A stretch of DNA of 20,876 nt from a virus. The stretch is taken from IMG/VR virus record IMGVR_UViG_3300044858_001383, positions 1 to 20,876 of that record. One strand, given 5' to 3'. This document shows, one piece after another, positions 11,905 through 15,447 of this stretch. The translations under genes and the position numbers were made by a program. The notes under the pieces were generated by a model, which saw only the letters and a list, made by a program, of their open reading frames with translations, was not told the origin of the DNA and made no database searches. The number at the start of each line of letters is the position of its first letter. Position 1 is the first letter of the stretch.

Positions 11905-12067
11905 TGTTGTTTTGCCACAACACCCTGTTGTGCGTGTACCACAACCCTAAACGCTAATAATTCTCATCATGCGTAAGAGAATCGTTTGCAATACGTAGAT
12001 GTTGCGTGAGTGCAACACGTTGCGTTGTGGCGTGGATGCAACAGTTAGTGTTGCGTGGATGCAACAC
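11905..12067. repeat. Cluster of five GTTG/CAAC dyads with 14-bp direct repeats
   Basis: Dyads: TGTTGT/ACAACA (11905-11922), GTTGTG/CACAAC (11927-11945), GTTGC/GCAAC (12001-12016), GTTGC/GCAAC (12019-12042) and GTGTTGC/GCAACAC (12048-12067). The 14-mer GCGTGGATGCAACA occurs exactly at 12030-12043 and 12053-12066, with a 12/14 match at 12004-12017, so spacing is 26 then 23 bp. The arrangement looks like repeated binding sites for one dimeric protein or for a replication initiator. Confidence 0.7.
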
Positions 12068-12084
12068 GATCAGGTGTCAGCAAT

Positions 12085-12375: not shown

Positions 12376-12404
12376 TTGACAGCATCGACACAACAAGGTG
12401 TAAT
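12376..12404 (+). promoter_or_regulatory. Sigma-70-type promoter for the rightward small-gene operon
   Basis: TTGACA (12376-12381), a 17-bp spacer, then TGTAAT (12399-12404): a perfect -35 and a 5/6 -10 at ideal spacing, 38 bp upstream of the first start codon. A second TTGACA copy follows at 12412-12417. The motif TGTTGACA here resembles the half-site of the operator at 20281-20298, so the same regulator could touch both regions; this is inference. Confidence 0.8.
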
Positions 12405-12442: not shown

Positions 12443-12661
12443 ATGTTCAGCATTTCATTCTTTAATACCGTTGATCAGGCCATGGAGTATCGCTACACCA
12501 ACGGCACAGGCGGATGGATATTCGCACCAGAGACTCCGGTAGACGGATCGAAGCATTGGACAGAATGTGCCAAGGTTTTATTGTTTCCGCCTGACTTCAC
12601 TCCGTCGCTAATTATCACGCATCCGCTAACTCGTGGTCAGTCTGGAAAACTTATCTCTTAA
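12443..12661 (+). CDS. Hypothetical protein (72 aa), first gene of the rightward operon
   Basis: ATG at 12443 preceded by GGAG with 9 nt spacing, the same spacing seen before the next two genes. The product begins MFSISFFNTVDQAMEYRYTN, contains GGWIFAPETPVDGSKHW and a hydrophobic middle (AKVLLFPPDF). No family recognised. The stop codon TAA (12659-12661) lies 2 nt before the first hammerhead ribozyme and may form part of its outer stem. Confidence 0.75.
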   Translation: MFSISFFNTVDQAMEYRYTNGTGGWIFAPETPVDGSKHWTECAKVLLFPPDFTPSLIITHPLTRGQSGKLIS

Positions 12662-12663
12662 TA

Positions 12664-12715
12664 GGTCGAAACTGCCGAGAGGCAGTCTAGCGGTAATGCC
12701 GCTACTGACGAGACC
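12664..12715 (+). ncRNA. Type II hammerhead ribozyme, copy 1
   Basis: All conserved core positions are present in type II order. GGTC (12664-12667, stem II 3' strand), GAAA (12668-12671), stem III CTGCC/GGCAG (12672-12685) closed by a GAGA loop, U-C cleavage dinucleotide (12686-12687), stem I TAGCGG/CCGCTA (12688-12704) with loop TAATG, CTGACGA (12705-12711), and GACC (12712-12715), which pairs with GGTC. Cleavage is predicted after C12687, leaving a 2',3'-cyclic phosphate and a 5'-OH. It is transcribed in the direction of the operon. Stem II may extend outward by UUA/UAA and CUC/GAG, which includes the upstream stop codon and the downstream SD. Confidence 0.93.
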
Positions 12716-12737
12716 AACTAACACGGAGCATCTAGCA

Positions 12738-12878
12738 ATGACTCACTTCTTAAACTCTGTCGTGTTCGTAGGCTTCACTCTCGCTTGTGTTGCCATTGTC
12801 ATAGATTCCTTTACACTCGGAGCCGGTGGCATAACCGTTGCCGGTATCGCTGCTTTGATCGACTACGTCCGCAACTAA
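12738..12878 (+). CDS. Small membrane protein (46 aa)
   Basis: ATG at 12738 with GGAG 9 nt upstream; a longer in-frame version would start inside the upstream gene and cross the ribozyme, so it is rejected. The product MTHFLNSVVFVGFTLACVAI continues VIDSFTLGAGGITVAGIAAL and ends IDYVRN. There is one clear transmembrane segment (about residues 7-23) and a second weaker hydrophobic stretch at 27-42. It is the first gene of the cassette bracketed by the two ribozymes. Family unknown; holin-like or host-modulating functions are only possibilities. Confidence 0.7.
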   Translation: MTHFLNSVVFVGFTLACVAIVIDSFTLGAGGITVAGIAALIDYVRN

Positions 12879-12896
12879 CTTTCGGAGAATAAAACA

Positions 12897-13079
12897 ATGC
12901 AACCTAAAGCAAAGGTTTACAGCAACGATTGGTCTACCTACATGGAAAAGACAGGCTCGCTGTGGTGCGTCATCGTTCGCAACGCTCGTGGCGACGTACA
13001 CGACAAGGTGAGGTGTGACGACTACCGCTCTGCCCTGACCTATTGGAAAGCCTTTAACGCTATCGCCAAAGTCGCCTAA
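12897..13079 (+). CDS. Hypothetical protein (60 aa)
   Basis: ATG preceded by GGAG at 9 nt. The product reads MQPKAKVYSNDWSTYMEKTG, then SLWCVIVRNARGDVHDKVRC and a helical end (YRSALTYWKAFNAIAKVA). The pattern is a small beta hairpin followed by a helix. It lies between the membrane peptide and the 126-aa gene in the ribozyme-bracketed cassette. No family recognised. Confidence 0.75.
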   Translation: MQPKAKVYSNDWSTYMEKTGSLWCVIVRNARGDVHDKVRCDDYRSALTYWKAFNAIAKVA

Positions 13080-13105
13080 TTAATAACTACTAGGAGAACC
13101 TAAAA

Positions 13106-13486
13106 ATGCAATCTTTCAAGCCTTTCGACAGTTTCGTATGCCACAACGACACCCGTACCGTCGAAGTCGATGGACTCACTATCGTTGCCACTATCTACGA
13201 AGACACGGATACGCATCCTGAGGACTTTGAATGCTATACCGAGTCAGACATCCGCGCATGGAAGGATGGAGACTGGTGCTACGTTGGCGTGGTGCTGTCG
13301 GTTTATGCGGGTGAGACGTTATTGGTAGACCATGCCGCAAGCCTTTGGGGTATCGACTGCAACTATCCTTCAGGCAATAACGCTTATCTTTCCGAAGTCG
13401 CTAATGACTTGCTATCTGATGCGGTCTGGCAGGGCAAGTCTGCCGTCATTCGTTTGCGCGACTCCCTGCAATCTGTCGCCGCCTAA
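13106..13486 (+). CDS. Conserved phage hypothetical protein (126 aa)
   Basis: ATG preceded by AGGAG (aactactaggagaaccta, spacing ~10). The product has a beta-rich N-terminus (TVEVDGLTIVATIYEDTDTH), an acidic PEDFECYTESDIRAWKDGDW segment, then LLVDHAASLWGIDCNYPSG and NNAYLSEVANDLL. I recognise the combination PxDxxCYT-xxxIxAW-xxxxWxxVG...ASLWGIxxxxPxGxNAYLxEVAN as a recurring protein of environmental and Burkholderiales phages, without an assigned function. Largest gene of the ribozyme-bracketed cassette. Confidence 0.88.
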   Translation: MQSFKPFDSFVCHNDTRTVEVDGLTIVATIYEDTDTHPEDFECYTESDIRAWKDGDWCYVGVVLSVYAGETLLVDHAASLWGIDCNYPSGNNAYLSEVANDLLSDAVWQGKSAVIRLRDSLQSVAA

Positions 13487-13512
13487 CTAATAATTACTCG
13501 GAAAATCTAACA

Positions 13513-13770
13513 ATGAAGCCTTACGCACAATACAAACCAGACGGCAAACTATGGTCAGCAGGTCGCACCATTTATGGCCTTTGCGCTGCTTATAACCATG
13601 CCACAAGCCCGTCACGCCTAATGACGGACGAGCAGCACCAACGTTCCAACGTCTACGCTCGTGCAATCCGTAATCGCATCAGACGCATGGGCTACCGATA
13701 CGGTGAGCATTACTCGGAATGGTCAAATGGTGCGCTCTATCCGTGTTCTGTTAAGTCTGCCAATTCCTAG
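13513..13770 (+). CDS. Hypothetical protein (85 aa)
   Basis: ATG preceded by CGGAAAA, a modest RBS. The product is MKPYAQYKPDGKLWSAGRTI, followed by YGLCAAYNHATSPSRLMTDE and an Arg-rich helix (YARAIRNRIRRMGYRYGEHY). The basic central helix could bind nucleic acid. The stop codon TAG (13768-13770) lies within a 5-bp extension (CCTAG/CTAGG) of the second ribozyme's stem II. Family not recognised. Confidence 0.75.
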   Translation: MKPYAQYKPDGKLWSAGRTIYGLCAAYNHATSPSRLMTDEQHQRSNVYARAIRNRIRRMGYRYGEHYSEWSNGALYPCSVKSANS

Positions 13771-13773
13771 AGA

Positions 13774-13823
13774 GGTCGAAACGCCGAGAGGCGTCTAGCA
13801 GTTACGCTGCTACTGATGAGACC
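13774..13823 (+). ncRNA. Type II hammerhead ribozyme, copy 2
   Basis: Same architecture as copy 1: GGTC (13774-13777), GAAA (13778-13781), stem III CGCC/GGCG (13782-13793) with a GAGA loop, U-C (13794-13795), stem I TAGCAG/CTGCTA (13796-13812) with loop TTACG, CTGATGA (13813-13819), GACC (13820-13823). Cleavage is predicted after C13795. Compared with copy 1, one stem I pair is exchanged G-C to A-U on both sides and stem III is one pair shorter on both sides, so the fold covaries. Stem II extends by CCTAG (13766-13770) with CTAGG (13830-13834) across a 3/6-nt internal loop, taking in the upstream UAG stop and part of the downstream AGGAG. Confidence 0.95.
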
Positions 13824-13844
13824 AACAAACTAGGAGATATGCAC

Positions 13845-14144
13845 ATGGGTTACACAATCAACGACACCGACAACCGTTACAACGGATGGACTAATTACGC
13901 TACGTGGCGCGTCAATCTGGAGATATTCGACGGGTTCGACCCCTCTGACTATTTCTCAGGCTTTGACGCTGACGATATCGACGCATTGGCTGACGGCCTG
14001 TCTGACTACGCTGACCAAGTGTTGTTCGAGTGCGCTACCGTCGAGGGGTTAGCCGCTGACTATGCCCGCGCTTTCCTGTCGGACGTTAATTGGCGAGAGA
14101 TTGCCGAGCATATGTTGGACGCCATCAAGCAGGAGGCCGCATGA
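13845..14144 (+). CDS. Acidic phage protein with NGWTNYATW motif (99 aa)
   Basis: The ATG at 13845 is chosen because AGGAG lies 8 nt upstream; the ATG six bases earlier is only 2 nt from it. The product begins MGYTINDTDNRYNGWTNYAT and has a very acidic middle (DDIDALADGLSDYADQ). The NGWTNYxTWxVNL pattern is a widespread phage family (DUF7249-like, from memory), sometimes linked to host-takeover gene blocks. It is the first gene after ribozyme 2, and its stop overlaps the next start (ATGA) within AGGAGGCCGCATGA. Confidence 0.88.
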   Translation: MGYTINDTDNRYNGWTNYATWRVNLEIFDGFDPSDYFSGFDADDIDALADGLSDYADQVLFECATVEGLAADYARAFLSDVNWREIAEHMLDAIKQEAA

Positions 14145-14338
14145 ACCGCTTTACGGTCACGCTCTGCCGTGTAGAGCATCACGCCTATCAGTTAGAAGTC
14201 GAAGCCGCTACAGCCGAGGAAGCCCACGAGATAGCGGTGGAAACGTGGGACGACGACGACGAGGCGTTCGACCATCTCGGGGTGGTACACGCTGAGGACT
14301 TTATCGAAGACGTTAAAAAGAAAATGGAGGCCGCATGA
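14141..14338 (+). CDS. Small acidic DpnD/PcfM-like protein (65 aa)
   Basis: Start fixed by an ATGA overlap with the preceding gene and an AGGAGG RBS inside that gene's last codons. The product is MNRFTVTLCRVEHHAYQLEV, then EAATAEEAHEIAVETWDDDD and a Lys-rich end. A beta hairpin followed by a helix with xVEAxxxEEAxEIA recalls the DpnD/PcfM-like small-protein group; this is a pattern impression only. It resembles the gene at 14738, so the two may be paralogs. Confidence 0.8.
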   Translation: MNRFTVTLCRVEHHAYQLEVEAATAEEAHEIAVETWDDDDEAFDHLGVVHAEDFIEDVKKKMEAA

Positions 14339-14550
14339 AAATCGAAGTTATCGGAGCGCGTGGTAAGTACACGGGCGATCTACTCTCTGCCGCGCCTGAT
14401 CTTCTGGAGGCGTTACTACTTGCCCTGCCTTACGTTGAGGACGTATTGGACAATCCCGAGCAGTTGGCTTGCTTCAAAGCCGGAGTCGTCCAACGTGACG
14501 TTAAGGCCATCCGTTCTGCAATCTCAAAGGCTACCGGGGAGGCGTTATGA
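14335..14550 (+). CDS. Conserved small phage protein with SAAPDLLEAL motif (71 aa)
   Basis: ATGA overlap with the gene before and the gene after. The product contains GDLLSAAPDLLEALLLALPY and VVQRDVKAIRSAISKATGEA. LxxAAPDLLEAL...AIxxAxGE is a very common small phage protein pattern of unknown function, often found in early gene clusters. Predicted all-helical. Confidence 0.88.
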   Translation: MKIEVIGARGKYTGDLLSAAPDLLEALLLALPYVEDVLDNPEQLACFKAGVVQRDVKAIRSAISKATGEAL

Positions 14551-14741
14551 CGCGAGAGCAAATGATTGAGGCTTTGACGCTTGAAGCCGTCCAGTACATC
14601 TACGAAGCCGCCCTGCGAGGCGACACAGGCTTGCTAGGCGACTATCTGCAATTCGGCTTTGTCGGCTTTGACAACATGAGCGATTCTGACTTGCTGCTTG
14701 AATACGAGACCACCATCGGCGACGCGCAGGAGGCCGCATGA
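14547..14741 (+). CDS. Small acidic helical protein (64 aa)
   Basis: Coupled by ATGA to both neighbours. The product starts MTREQMIEALTLEAVQYIYE and ends with LLLEYETTIGDAQEAA, the final codons again forming the AGGAGGCCGCATGA joint. It is acidic and mostly helical. Family not recognised. Confidence 0.8.
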   Translation: MTREQMIEALTLEAVQYIYEAALRGDTGLLGDYLQFGFVGFDNMSDSDLLLEYETTIGDAQEAA

Positions 14742-14923
14742 AAACGTATGACGTGGTGCTATTCGCATCCATTCAGGAGATTGTGAGCGTACAGGCCAGA
14801 GACGAAGACGACGCTGCCGAGATCGCTCTGCAAATCGTGAAGGCTGGCTATACCGTCCACAGCGAACTGGATTGGGATGTCGAGGAAGTCAACATAGGAG
14901 ATCCTGCCGATGTCGCAGAATGA
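14738..14923 (+). CDS. Small acidic DpnD/PcfM-like protein (61 aa)
   Basis: ATGA-coupled start with AGGAGG. The product reads MKTYDVVLFASIQEIVSVQA, RDEDDAAEIALQIVKAGYTV and an acidic tail. The layout (two strands, then a helix with xVxARDEDDAAEIA) matches the gene at 14141, so they look like diverged paralogs. Its end overlaps the next gene by 14 nt. Confidence 0.82.
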   Translation: MKTYDVVLFASIQEIVSVQARDEDDAAEIALQIVKAGYTVHSELDWDVEEVNIGDPADVAE

Positions 14924-15119
14924 CCAGATACGCGCCGCCCTGATTCTAGGGCGGTCGCTCACCCCGCTCGATGCCTTGCAGGATTATGGATGTTTCAGGC
15001 TTGCCGCTCGGATTGCCGAATTAAGGCGAGAGGGGCTAGACATTGAGTGCAAAACGGAGACAACCAACGGCAAACGATATGCCCGTTATTTCCTGCGGAG
15101 GCCTTATGTCTCGTTATAA
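14910..15119 (+). CDS. Winged helix-turn-helix protein (69 aa)
   Basis: ATG at 14910 with AGGAG 9 nt upstream. The product is MSQNDQIRAALILGRSLTPL, then DALQDYGCFRLAARIAELRR and a beta wing (IECKTETTNGKRYARYFL). The pattern SLTPLDAL-xxxGCFRLAARIxELRxxG is typical of a small phage HTH family (HTH_39-like). It may regulate transcription or replication. It could be the binder of one of the operator arrays upstream of this operon, which is speculation. Confidence 0.88.
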   Translation: MSQNDQIRAALILGRSLTPLDALQDYGCFRLAARIAELRREGLDIECKTETTNGKRYARYFLRRPYVSL

Positions 15120-15234
15120 ACTTTGGCGCAAACTGACTAGGTGGTTTGGCCGTGGCTTGATCGACTGGCGCGAGGTGCCACCGCCTAACGTCCGCTCTAG
15201 CCGCGCACAGCACCCATTGTCCAACTATTGGTGA
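15106..15234 (+). CDS. Tiny basic protein (42 aa)
   Basis: ATG at 15106 with GGAGG 5 nt upstream, overlapping the previous stop by 14 nt. The product is MSRYKLWRKLTRWFGRGLID, then WREVPPPNVRSSRAQHPLSN and YW. It is a Trp/Arg/Lys-rich amphipathic N-terminus that could associate with membrane or DNA. Unknown family. Confidence 0.6.
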   Translation: MSRYKLWRKLTRWFGRGLIDWREVPPPNVRSSRAQHPLSNYW

Positions 15235-15237
15235 CTT

Positions 15238-15447
15238 ATGGAAAAACCACACTTTCCAACCATCGCAGAACTAGAAGCGCTCTTCACAGACGGCAGCACA
15301 CCCCTGACCTACCGCGCACCCCCTAACCCTGCGCGGCTCCAGACGGCTGTGCGGGCGTTTATCAGCGCATGGGACGACGACTTGACGGTTAGGGAACTCG
15401 CGCCTTTCGTCGAGGAAGTGCGCCGAGCATTGGAGGGGCGACCGTGA
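15238..15447 (+). CDS. Hypothetical protein (69 aa)
   Basis: ATG 3 nt after the preceding TGA; no clear separate RBS, so probably coupled. The product begins MEKPHFPTIAELEALFTDGS, contains ARLQTAVRAFISAWDDDLTV and ends with VEEVRRALEGRP. Mostly helical, acidic. Its stop overlaps the next GTG (GTGA). Confidence 0.75.
   Translation: MEKPHFPTIAELEALFTDGSTPLTYRAPPNPARLQTAVRAFISAWDDDLTVRELAPFVEEVRRALEGRP

Follow-up and report, generated by a model that had tools for sequence, protein, structure and literature searches.

Tandem or multiple hammerhead ribozymes that flank single genes or short gene blocks in prophages were reported by Perreault et al. 2011 (PMC3088659), together with many hammerheads that lack a pseudoknot, and the tandem hammerheads of A. 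tumefaciens are able to cleave in E. coli (PMC3088659). Hammerheads often flank small nonconserved open reading frames, and their role in bacteria and phages has been described in review as an open question (PMC6155905). Here, we analyzed a viral contig of 20,876 bases (the window, meaning the whole stretch of DNA analyzed), in which family searches identified a P22-type portal, a terminase with P22-like phage relatives, and the recombination genes ERF and YqaJ. The terminase is separated from the replication/recombination genes, which lie on the other strand, by a run of small + strand genes (~12443-15444) that holds two hammerheads, HHR1 and HHR2, arranged as follows:

12443 to 12661, + strand: gene A, 72 aa, without a family match; 2 nt separate its TAA from HHR1
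12664 to 12715, + strand: HHR1, complete type II hammerhead ribozyme (descriptor, covariance model R1, minimum free energy fold, RF02276 at 28.3 bits)
12664 to 12667, + strand: HHR1 stem II, 5' strand GGUC, partner GACC at 12712-12715 (sequence, descriptor)
12668 to 12671, + strand: HHR1 core GAA(A) (sequence)
12671 to 12686, + strand: HHR1 stem III hairpin ACUGCC-GAGA-GGCAGU, with a GNRA loop and including A15.1-U16.1 (fold, descriptor, covariance model)
12688 to 12704, + strand: HHR1 stem I hairpin UAGCGG-UAAUG-CCGCUA (fold, descriptor, covariance model)
12705 to 12711, + strand: HHR1 core CUGACGA (descriptor)
12716 to 12740, + strand: leader of 25 nt with ribosome-binding site and ATG, AACTAACACGGAGCATCTAGCAATG, common to hammerhead-free genes of relatives
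12738 to 12878, + strand: gene B, 46 aa, first after HHR1
12897 to 13079, + strand: gene C, 60 aa
13106 to 13486, + strand: gene D, 126 aa, phrog_5644
13513 to 13770, + strand: gene E, 85 aa; 3 nt separate its TAG from HHR2
13774 to 13823, + strand: HHR2, complete type II hammerhead ribozyme (descriptor, covariance model R1, minimum free energy fold)
13781 to 13794, + strand: HHR2 stem III hairpin ACGCC-GAGA-GGCGU (fold, descriptor)
13796 to 13812, + strand: HHR2 stem I hairpin UAGCAG-UUACG-CUGCUA (fold, descriptor)
13813 to 13819, + strand: HHR2 core CUGAUGA, with U at N7 (descriptor)
13839 to 14144, + strand: gene F, 101 aa (99 aa if begun at the second ATG), DUF7249/phrog_871, first after HHR2

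Both elements carry the full type II core (CUGANGA, GAAA, a UH cleavage site, and A15.1-U16.1), and folds and covariance model alignment give both the type II topology, in which stems I and III are closed by loops and stem II is open. Cleavage is predicted 3' of C12687 in HHR1 and 3' of C13795 in HHR2, each corresponding to C17. The two copies are identical at 45 of 52 aligned columns (~87%); the stem I pair G12692-C12700 of HHR1 is A13800-U13808 in HHR2, and stem III of HHR2 is one pair shorter on both sides. An earlier sequence-only reading of this DNA had given the same coordinates, core bases, stems, cleavage sites, percent identity, and G-C to A-U swap, all of which we recovered from the sequence. 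Folded alone, each element has the hammerhead as its minimum free energy structure (HHR1, -23.7 kcal/mol, z -4.2; HHR2, -20.2 kcal/mol, z -3.1), and hammerheads of other types were not found within the window. A strict descriptor of the full type II element matched the window exactly twice, at HHR1 and HHR2, compared to ~0.007 matches expected per 20.9-kb window from the six it made in 17.65 Mb of first-order Markov chance sequence.

Covariance model R1, trained on 52 elements from other phages that share this shape, with the window and its close relatives excluded (L135, a distant locus carrying a DUF7249 gene, stayed in), scored HHR1 at 71.6 bits (E 1.3e-21) and HHR2 at 68.1 bits (E 1.8e-20), and the next-best match in the window reached 10.8 bits with filters off. 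Though the training sequences were picked by a descriptor demanding paired stems, this demand hardly matters for R1, because 129 of 133 DNA matches to a pattern limited to core and near-core positions, among the matches listed, have at least 4 bp in both stem I and stem III. In the alignment of the 52 relatives, 13 of 16 pairs vary on both sides with pairing kept. The sequence-only reading had regarded covariation between the two copies as strong evidence of function; the window pair alone is thin in this respect, with one swapped and one lost pair, whereas the relatives supply strong covariation, which along with the independent covariance model supports its identification of both elements as complete type II hammerheads.

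Viral type II elements split, among the matches listed, into a long-loop and a compact group. In long-loop elements, stem II is mostly 3 bp long and the stem I hairpin spans 20-24 nt, with a loop that can pair with bases 3' of stem II; pairing of this kind of at least 4 bp was present in 103 of 105 listed matches compared to 55 after shuffling. Compact elements have a 4-bp stem II and a stem I hairpin mostly of 17 nt with a U-N-A-N-G loop closed by G-C, and are flanked by an A 5' of stem II and usually by another A 3' of it. This group has no such pseudoknot: loop I and the 3' flank formed 4 bp or more in only 5 of 71 of the compact matches listed, against 8.2 when shuffled. The window pair falls in the compact group, in its form with the 17-nt stem I hairpin, and outside the pseudoknotted class. 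Of 116 loci listed, 59 held only long-loop elements, 56 only compact elements, and one held both. The pseudoknot-free form is not new as such, since Perreault et al. already noted hammerheads of this kind; we found no earlier description of the compact form in the main texts of the open-access literature. Stem III loops of four bases were GNRA or UNCG in 80 of 114 cases among the matches listed, as a stable hairpin would predict.

The Rfam type II model (RF02276), proposed by the sequence-only reading as a check, gave HHR1 28.3 bits, under the cut-off of 37, and did not report HHR2. Neither element appears in the cmscan listing, with no match at the Rfam gathering cut-off (37 bits). The same model recognized 13 long-loop elements in four loci and none of the ~25 compact elements in that scan, and a second scan recognized 0 of ~36 compact elements. 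With none of ~60 compact elements recognized across scans, a gap in Rfam is indicated.

Type II elements are placed tightly between genes. Across viral loci, the distance from stop codon to ribozyme has a median of 1 nt (-3 to +6 in 123 of 161) and that from ribozyme end to the next start a median of 26 nt (usually ~20-28 nt), among the matches listed; the corresponding medians are 2 and 21 nt for the compact subclass, also among the matches listed, and 3 and 23 nt in bacterial genome contigs. In the window, the stops lie 2 and 3 nt upstream and the starts 22 and 15-21 nt downstream. Beginning at the stop codon and ending before the next leader, the ribozyme thus occupies the whole stop-to-leader space. 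Stop triplets inside the motif, such as TAGTCGAAA, could explain part of the adjoining of the stop codon. Type III elements (closed stem II pattern matches, L284-L403) lie a median of 32 nt past the stop with 0 of 24 within -3 to +6, and type I elements show mixed distances, both among the matches listed; this contrast comes from a small, redundant sample and is suggestive only.

Two or more type II elements (2-8) were found in 31 of 116 viral loci listed, on the same strand in all 31, and the window likewise has the makeup of a phage or prophage cluster, with at least two same-strand hammerheads around short genes (A-F). The earlier suggestion that two in one operon is unusual lacks support: given these 31 loci and the clusters published in 2011 (PMC3088659), the window pair is typical. 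Compact pairs ~290-330 nt apart repeatedly flank a single gene of ~90 aa in bacterial genome contigs, most of them from Gastranaerophilales and from many of their genomes (loci L407, L408, L416, L417, L421, L425, L431, L433, L434, L458, and L467), where the protein has diverged and the pair is kept. One viral contig carries eight same-strand type II hammerheads (L110:8125-11317), one of them directly preceding a protein with an ArdA antirestriction-like start (MTEIRIYAACLASYNNGRLYGQWIDC; compare the ardA link of Perreault et al.), and another with two hammerheads has an Rfam tmRNA match of only 66 bases (L129:6081-6146).

The small-gene run is only a putative early operon. No promoter-like site rose above shuffled background, and promoter and terminator scans of the operon were both at background level. 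A possible promoter missed by the consensus scan, TTGACA and TGTAAT separated by 17 nt, lies ahead of gene A at 12376-12404, and intergenic direct repeats, GTTGCGTG(G)ATGCAACA, precede the operon at 11999-12070. No tRNA was found in the window, and no direct nucleotide relative among named phages. The nearest terminases (~69-70% aa) belong to Phage DSL-LC05 and MW202483, neither of which has a type II hammerhead, and the nearest named phage is labeled Gammaproteobacteria. A specific tie between the hammerhead and gene F (DUF7249) was considered and rejected, as a type II hammerhead lies directly upstream in only 8 of 80 relatives of F.

Close relatives with 96-99% identical terminases share these small genes, but their order varies and hammerheads may be present or absent. 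Writing H for a hammerhead, the window reads A-H-B-C-D-E-H-F, L203 B-A-H-F, L202 H-x-B-E-D-F, L206 B-C-F, L207 and L210 B-F, L005 B-J, and L007 B-C-E-H-x. Window positions 12662-12740, comprising ribozyme and leader up to the start codon, are 97.5% identical over 79 nt to L202 2797-2875, and the genes to either side are unrelated. Homology between L206 and the window begins at 12716 and 13824, the first base past each ribozyme, showing a clean absence of both ribozymes from L206. A single hammerhead joins A to F in L203, aligning to HHR1 toward A and to HHR2 toward F; two compensated pair changes distinguish its stem I from that of HHR1, and gene A with its upstream flank is 92.5% identical. 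The L007 element has lost the 1.1-2.1 pair to an A-A mismatch and looks, from its sequence, like the product of a crossover within stem I. The leader AACTAACACGGAGCATCTAGCAATG recurs before different genes with and without a hammerhead (L202:2551, L206:3610, L207:3133, and L210:3326), making it a stereotyped linker between genes in this group of phages. In L025, L032, and L219, a hammerhead-free gap before the DUF7249 gene can hold a plain hairpin, GGGCGGCGCCCAYGGCCGCCC, closely resembling the stem III hairpin of the L019 and L031 hammerheads, as if the two interconvert.

We propose, with a probability of roughly 0.6, that HHR1 and HHR2 are type II hammerheads acting as intergenic mRNA separators in a shuffled small-gene operon. 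The transcribed RNA would self-cleave after C12687 and C13795, and since stem II is the open stem, each cut would fall between two closed hairpins. The upstream mRNA would then end in the stem III hairpin with a 2',3'-cyclic phosphate, and the downstream mRNA would begin with the stem I hairpin carrying a 5'-OH and continue into its own leader. This would divide the operon message into A, B-C-D-E, and F onward, each piece bearing a hairpin at every ribozyme-made end and a standard leader regardless of the gene upstream. We infer that such cleavage in the cell would separate the mRNAs, that the end hairpins would protect and stabilize them, and that the standardized 5' end would insulate the next gene. 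Judging from topology, types I and III would be unable to leave a hairpin on both products. Observed ribozyme sequence and fold, covariation, stop-to-leader position, stable stem III loops, portability, exact presence or absence in relatives, and flanking pairs in bacterial contigs all count in favor of separation, with the A. tumefaciens tandem hammerheads and the engineered insulator RiboJ as precedents. Against it, several close relatives have no hammerhead at all, so the element is dispensable; the compact subclass lacks the loop I pseudoknot, which is the source of the speed of other type II hammerheads; and with the native upstream sequence of HHR1 included, a nearest-neighbor model that takes no account of tertiary contacts favors another fold over stem II (-40.4 versus -36.3 kcal/mol), leaving a stem II probability of ~0.

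The shuffling of genes also lends itself to another account, that the ribozymes persist mainly as ~50-75-nt patches of DNA homology for cassette exchange by the ERF annealase and YqaJ exonuclease, with cleavage incidental or ancestral. Both enzymes are encoded in the window, the order of genes A-L differs in nearly every close relative, the 79-nt block of L202 sits between unrelated genes, the L203 hammerhead is part HHR1-like and part HHR2-like as if B-E had been gained or lost there, and the L007 element with its mismatch resembles a crossover in stem I. However, stem sequences change without loss of pairing around a constant core, which requires selection on RNA, and many hammerhead-free junctions in relatives still shuffle, where the short leader alone is repeated. 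We therefore consider this unlikely as the main reason for persistence; a recombination patch is compatible with a separator and may act alongside it, but would not alone keep the stems paired.

The refolding of HHR1 could instead reflect a translation-coupled switch, in which the catalytic core is sequestered by base pairing with the 3' end of gene A until a ribosome completing that gene releases it for cleavage. The drop in stem II probability to ~0 with upstream sequence is as this predicts, but when native upstream contexts were ranked against swapped contexts, HHR1 ranked at 0.15, HHR2 at 0.67, and the compact subclass at a mean of 0.45 +/- 0.03 where 0.5 is expected, which argues against a general switch design. 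This rank test over 72 elements found no systematic disruption of stem II by upstream sequence across the compact subclass, and translation-coupled refolding as a general effect was rejected, a Wilcoxon comparison being discounted for its skew; a switch at HHR1 itself we regard as quite improbable. Least probable is excision of a 1,108-nt RNA (12688-13795, genes B-E) that is circularized by an RtcB-type ligase in the manner of a retrozyme, since, though two same-strand ribozymes would free exactly this segment with 5'-OH and 2',3'-cyclic phosphate ends, relatives with one or no ribozyme are common, no retroelement gene was found among the Pfam-scanned window proteins, and Perreault et al. saw no circular or spliced RNAs when they looked for such products of tandem hammerheads (PMC3088659).

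Extending the mRNA separator reading beyond the window, we tentatively suggest that the compact, pseudoknot-free subclass is a portable stop-to-start spacer in many phages, which moves with the leader and might serve as a natural insulator, yielding hairpin-capped, context-independent messages and rendering gene shuffling harmless to expression. HHR1 and HHR2 are a known kind of element, and their value lies in the context of natural alleles: near-identical phages provide plus and minus ribozyme alleles before the same genes, and the same ribozyme between different genes. These alleles, along with the hairpin predicted on both products, make the separator or insulator idea directly testable, and the behavior of a ready-made spacer between unrelated genes bears on what phage hammerheads do.

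The hammerhead of the engineered insulator RiboJ derives from a plant satellite RNA. As with RiboJ, cleavage by a hammerhead placed before a ribosome-binding site would leave the message with a uniform, hairpin-bearing 5' leader. The RiboJ hammerhead normalizes the 5' untranslated region and a separate 23-nt hairpin is added (PMC7536230), whereas the proposed insulators of the window would have stem I for their 5' hairpin. HHR1 and HHR2 share their permutation, core, and cleavage-site context with the type II hammerheads of bacteria, prophages, and phages (Perreault et al. 2011, PMC3088659; RF02276), which are likewise intergenic and clustered around small phage genes; the window pair differs in its 4-bp stem II, 17-nt stem I hairpin, UNANG loop, and lack of a loop I/3'-flank pseudoknot. 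As in retrozymes and other hammerhead circular RNAs (PMC4918200, PMC7761336), two same-strand hammerheads bracket a defined RNA, but unlike retrozymes, the window pair has a different permutation, encloses coding genes, and has no retroelement features noted. Theta ribozymes of gut phages (PMC10879173) are likewise a class of self-cleaving ribozyme in phage genomes; they are HDV-like and tied to suppressor tRNAs (PMC10879173), in contrast to the hammerheads of this tRNA-free window.
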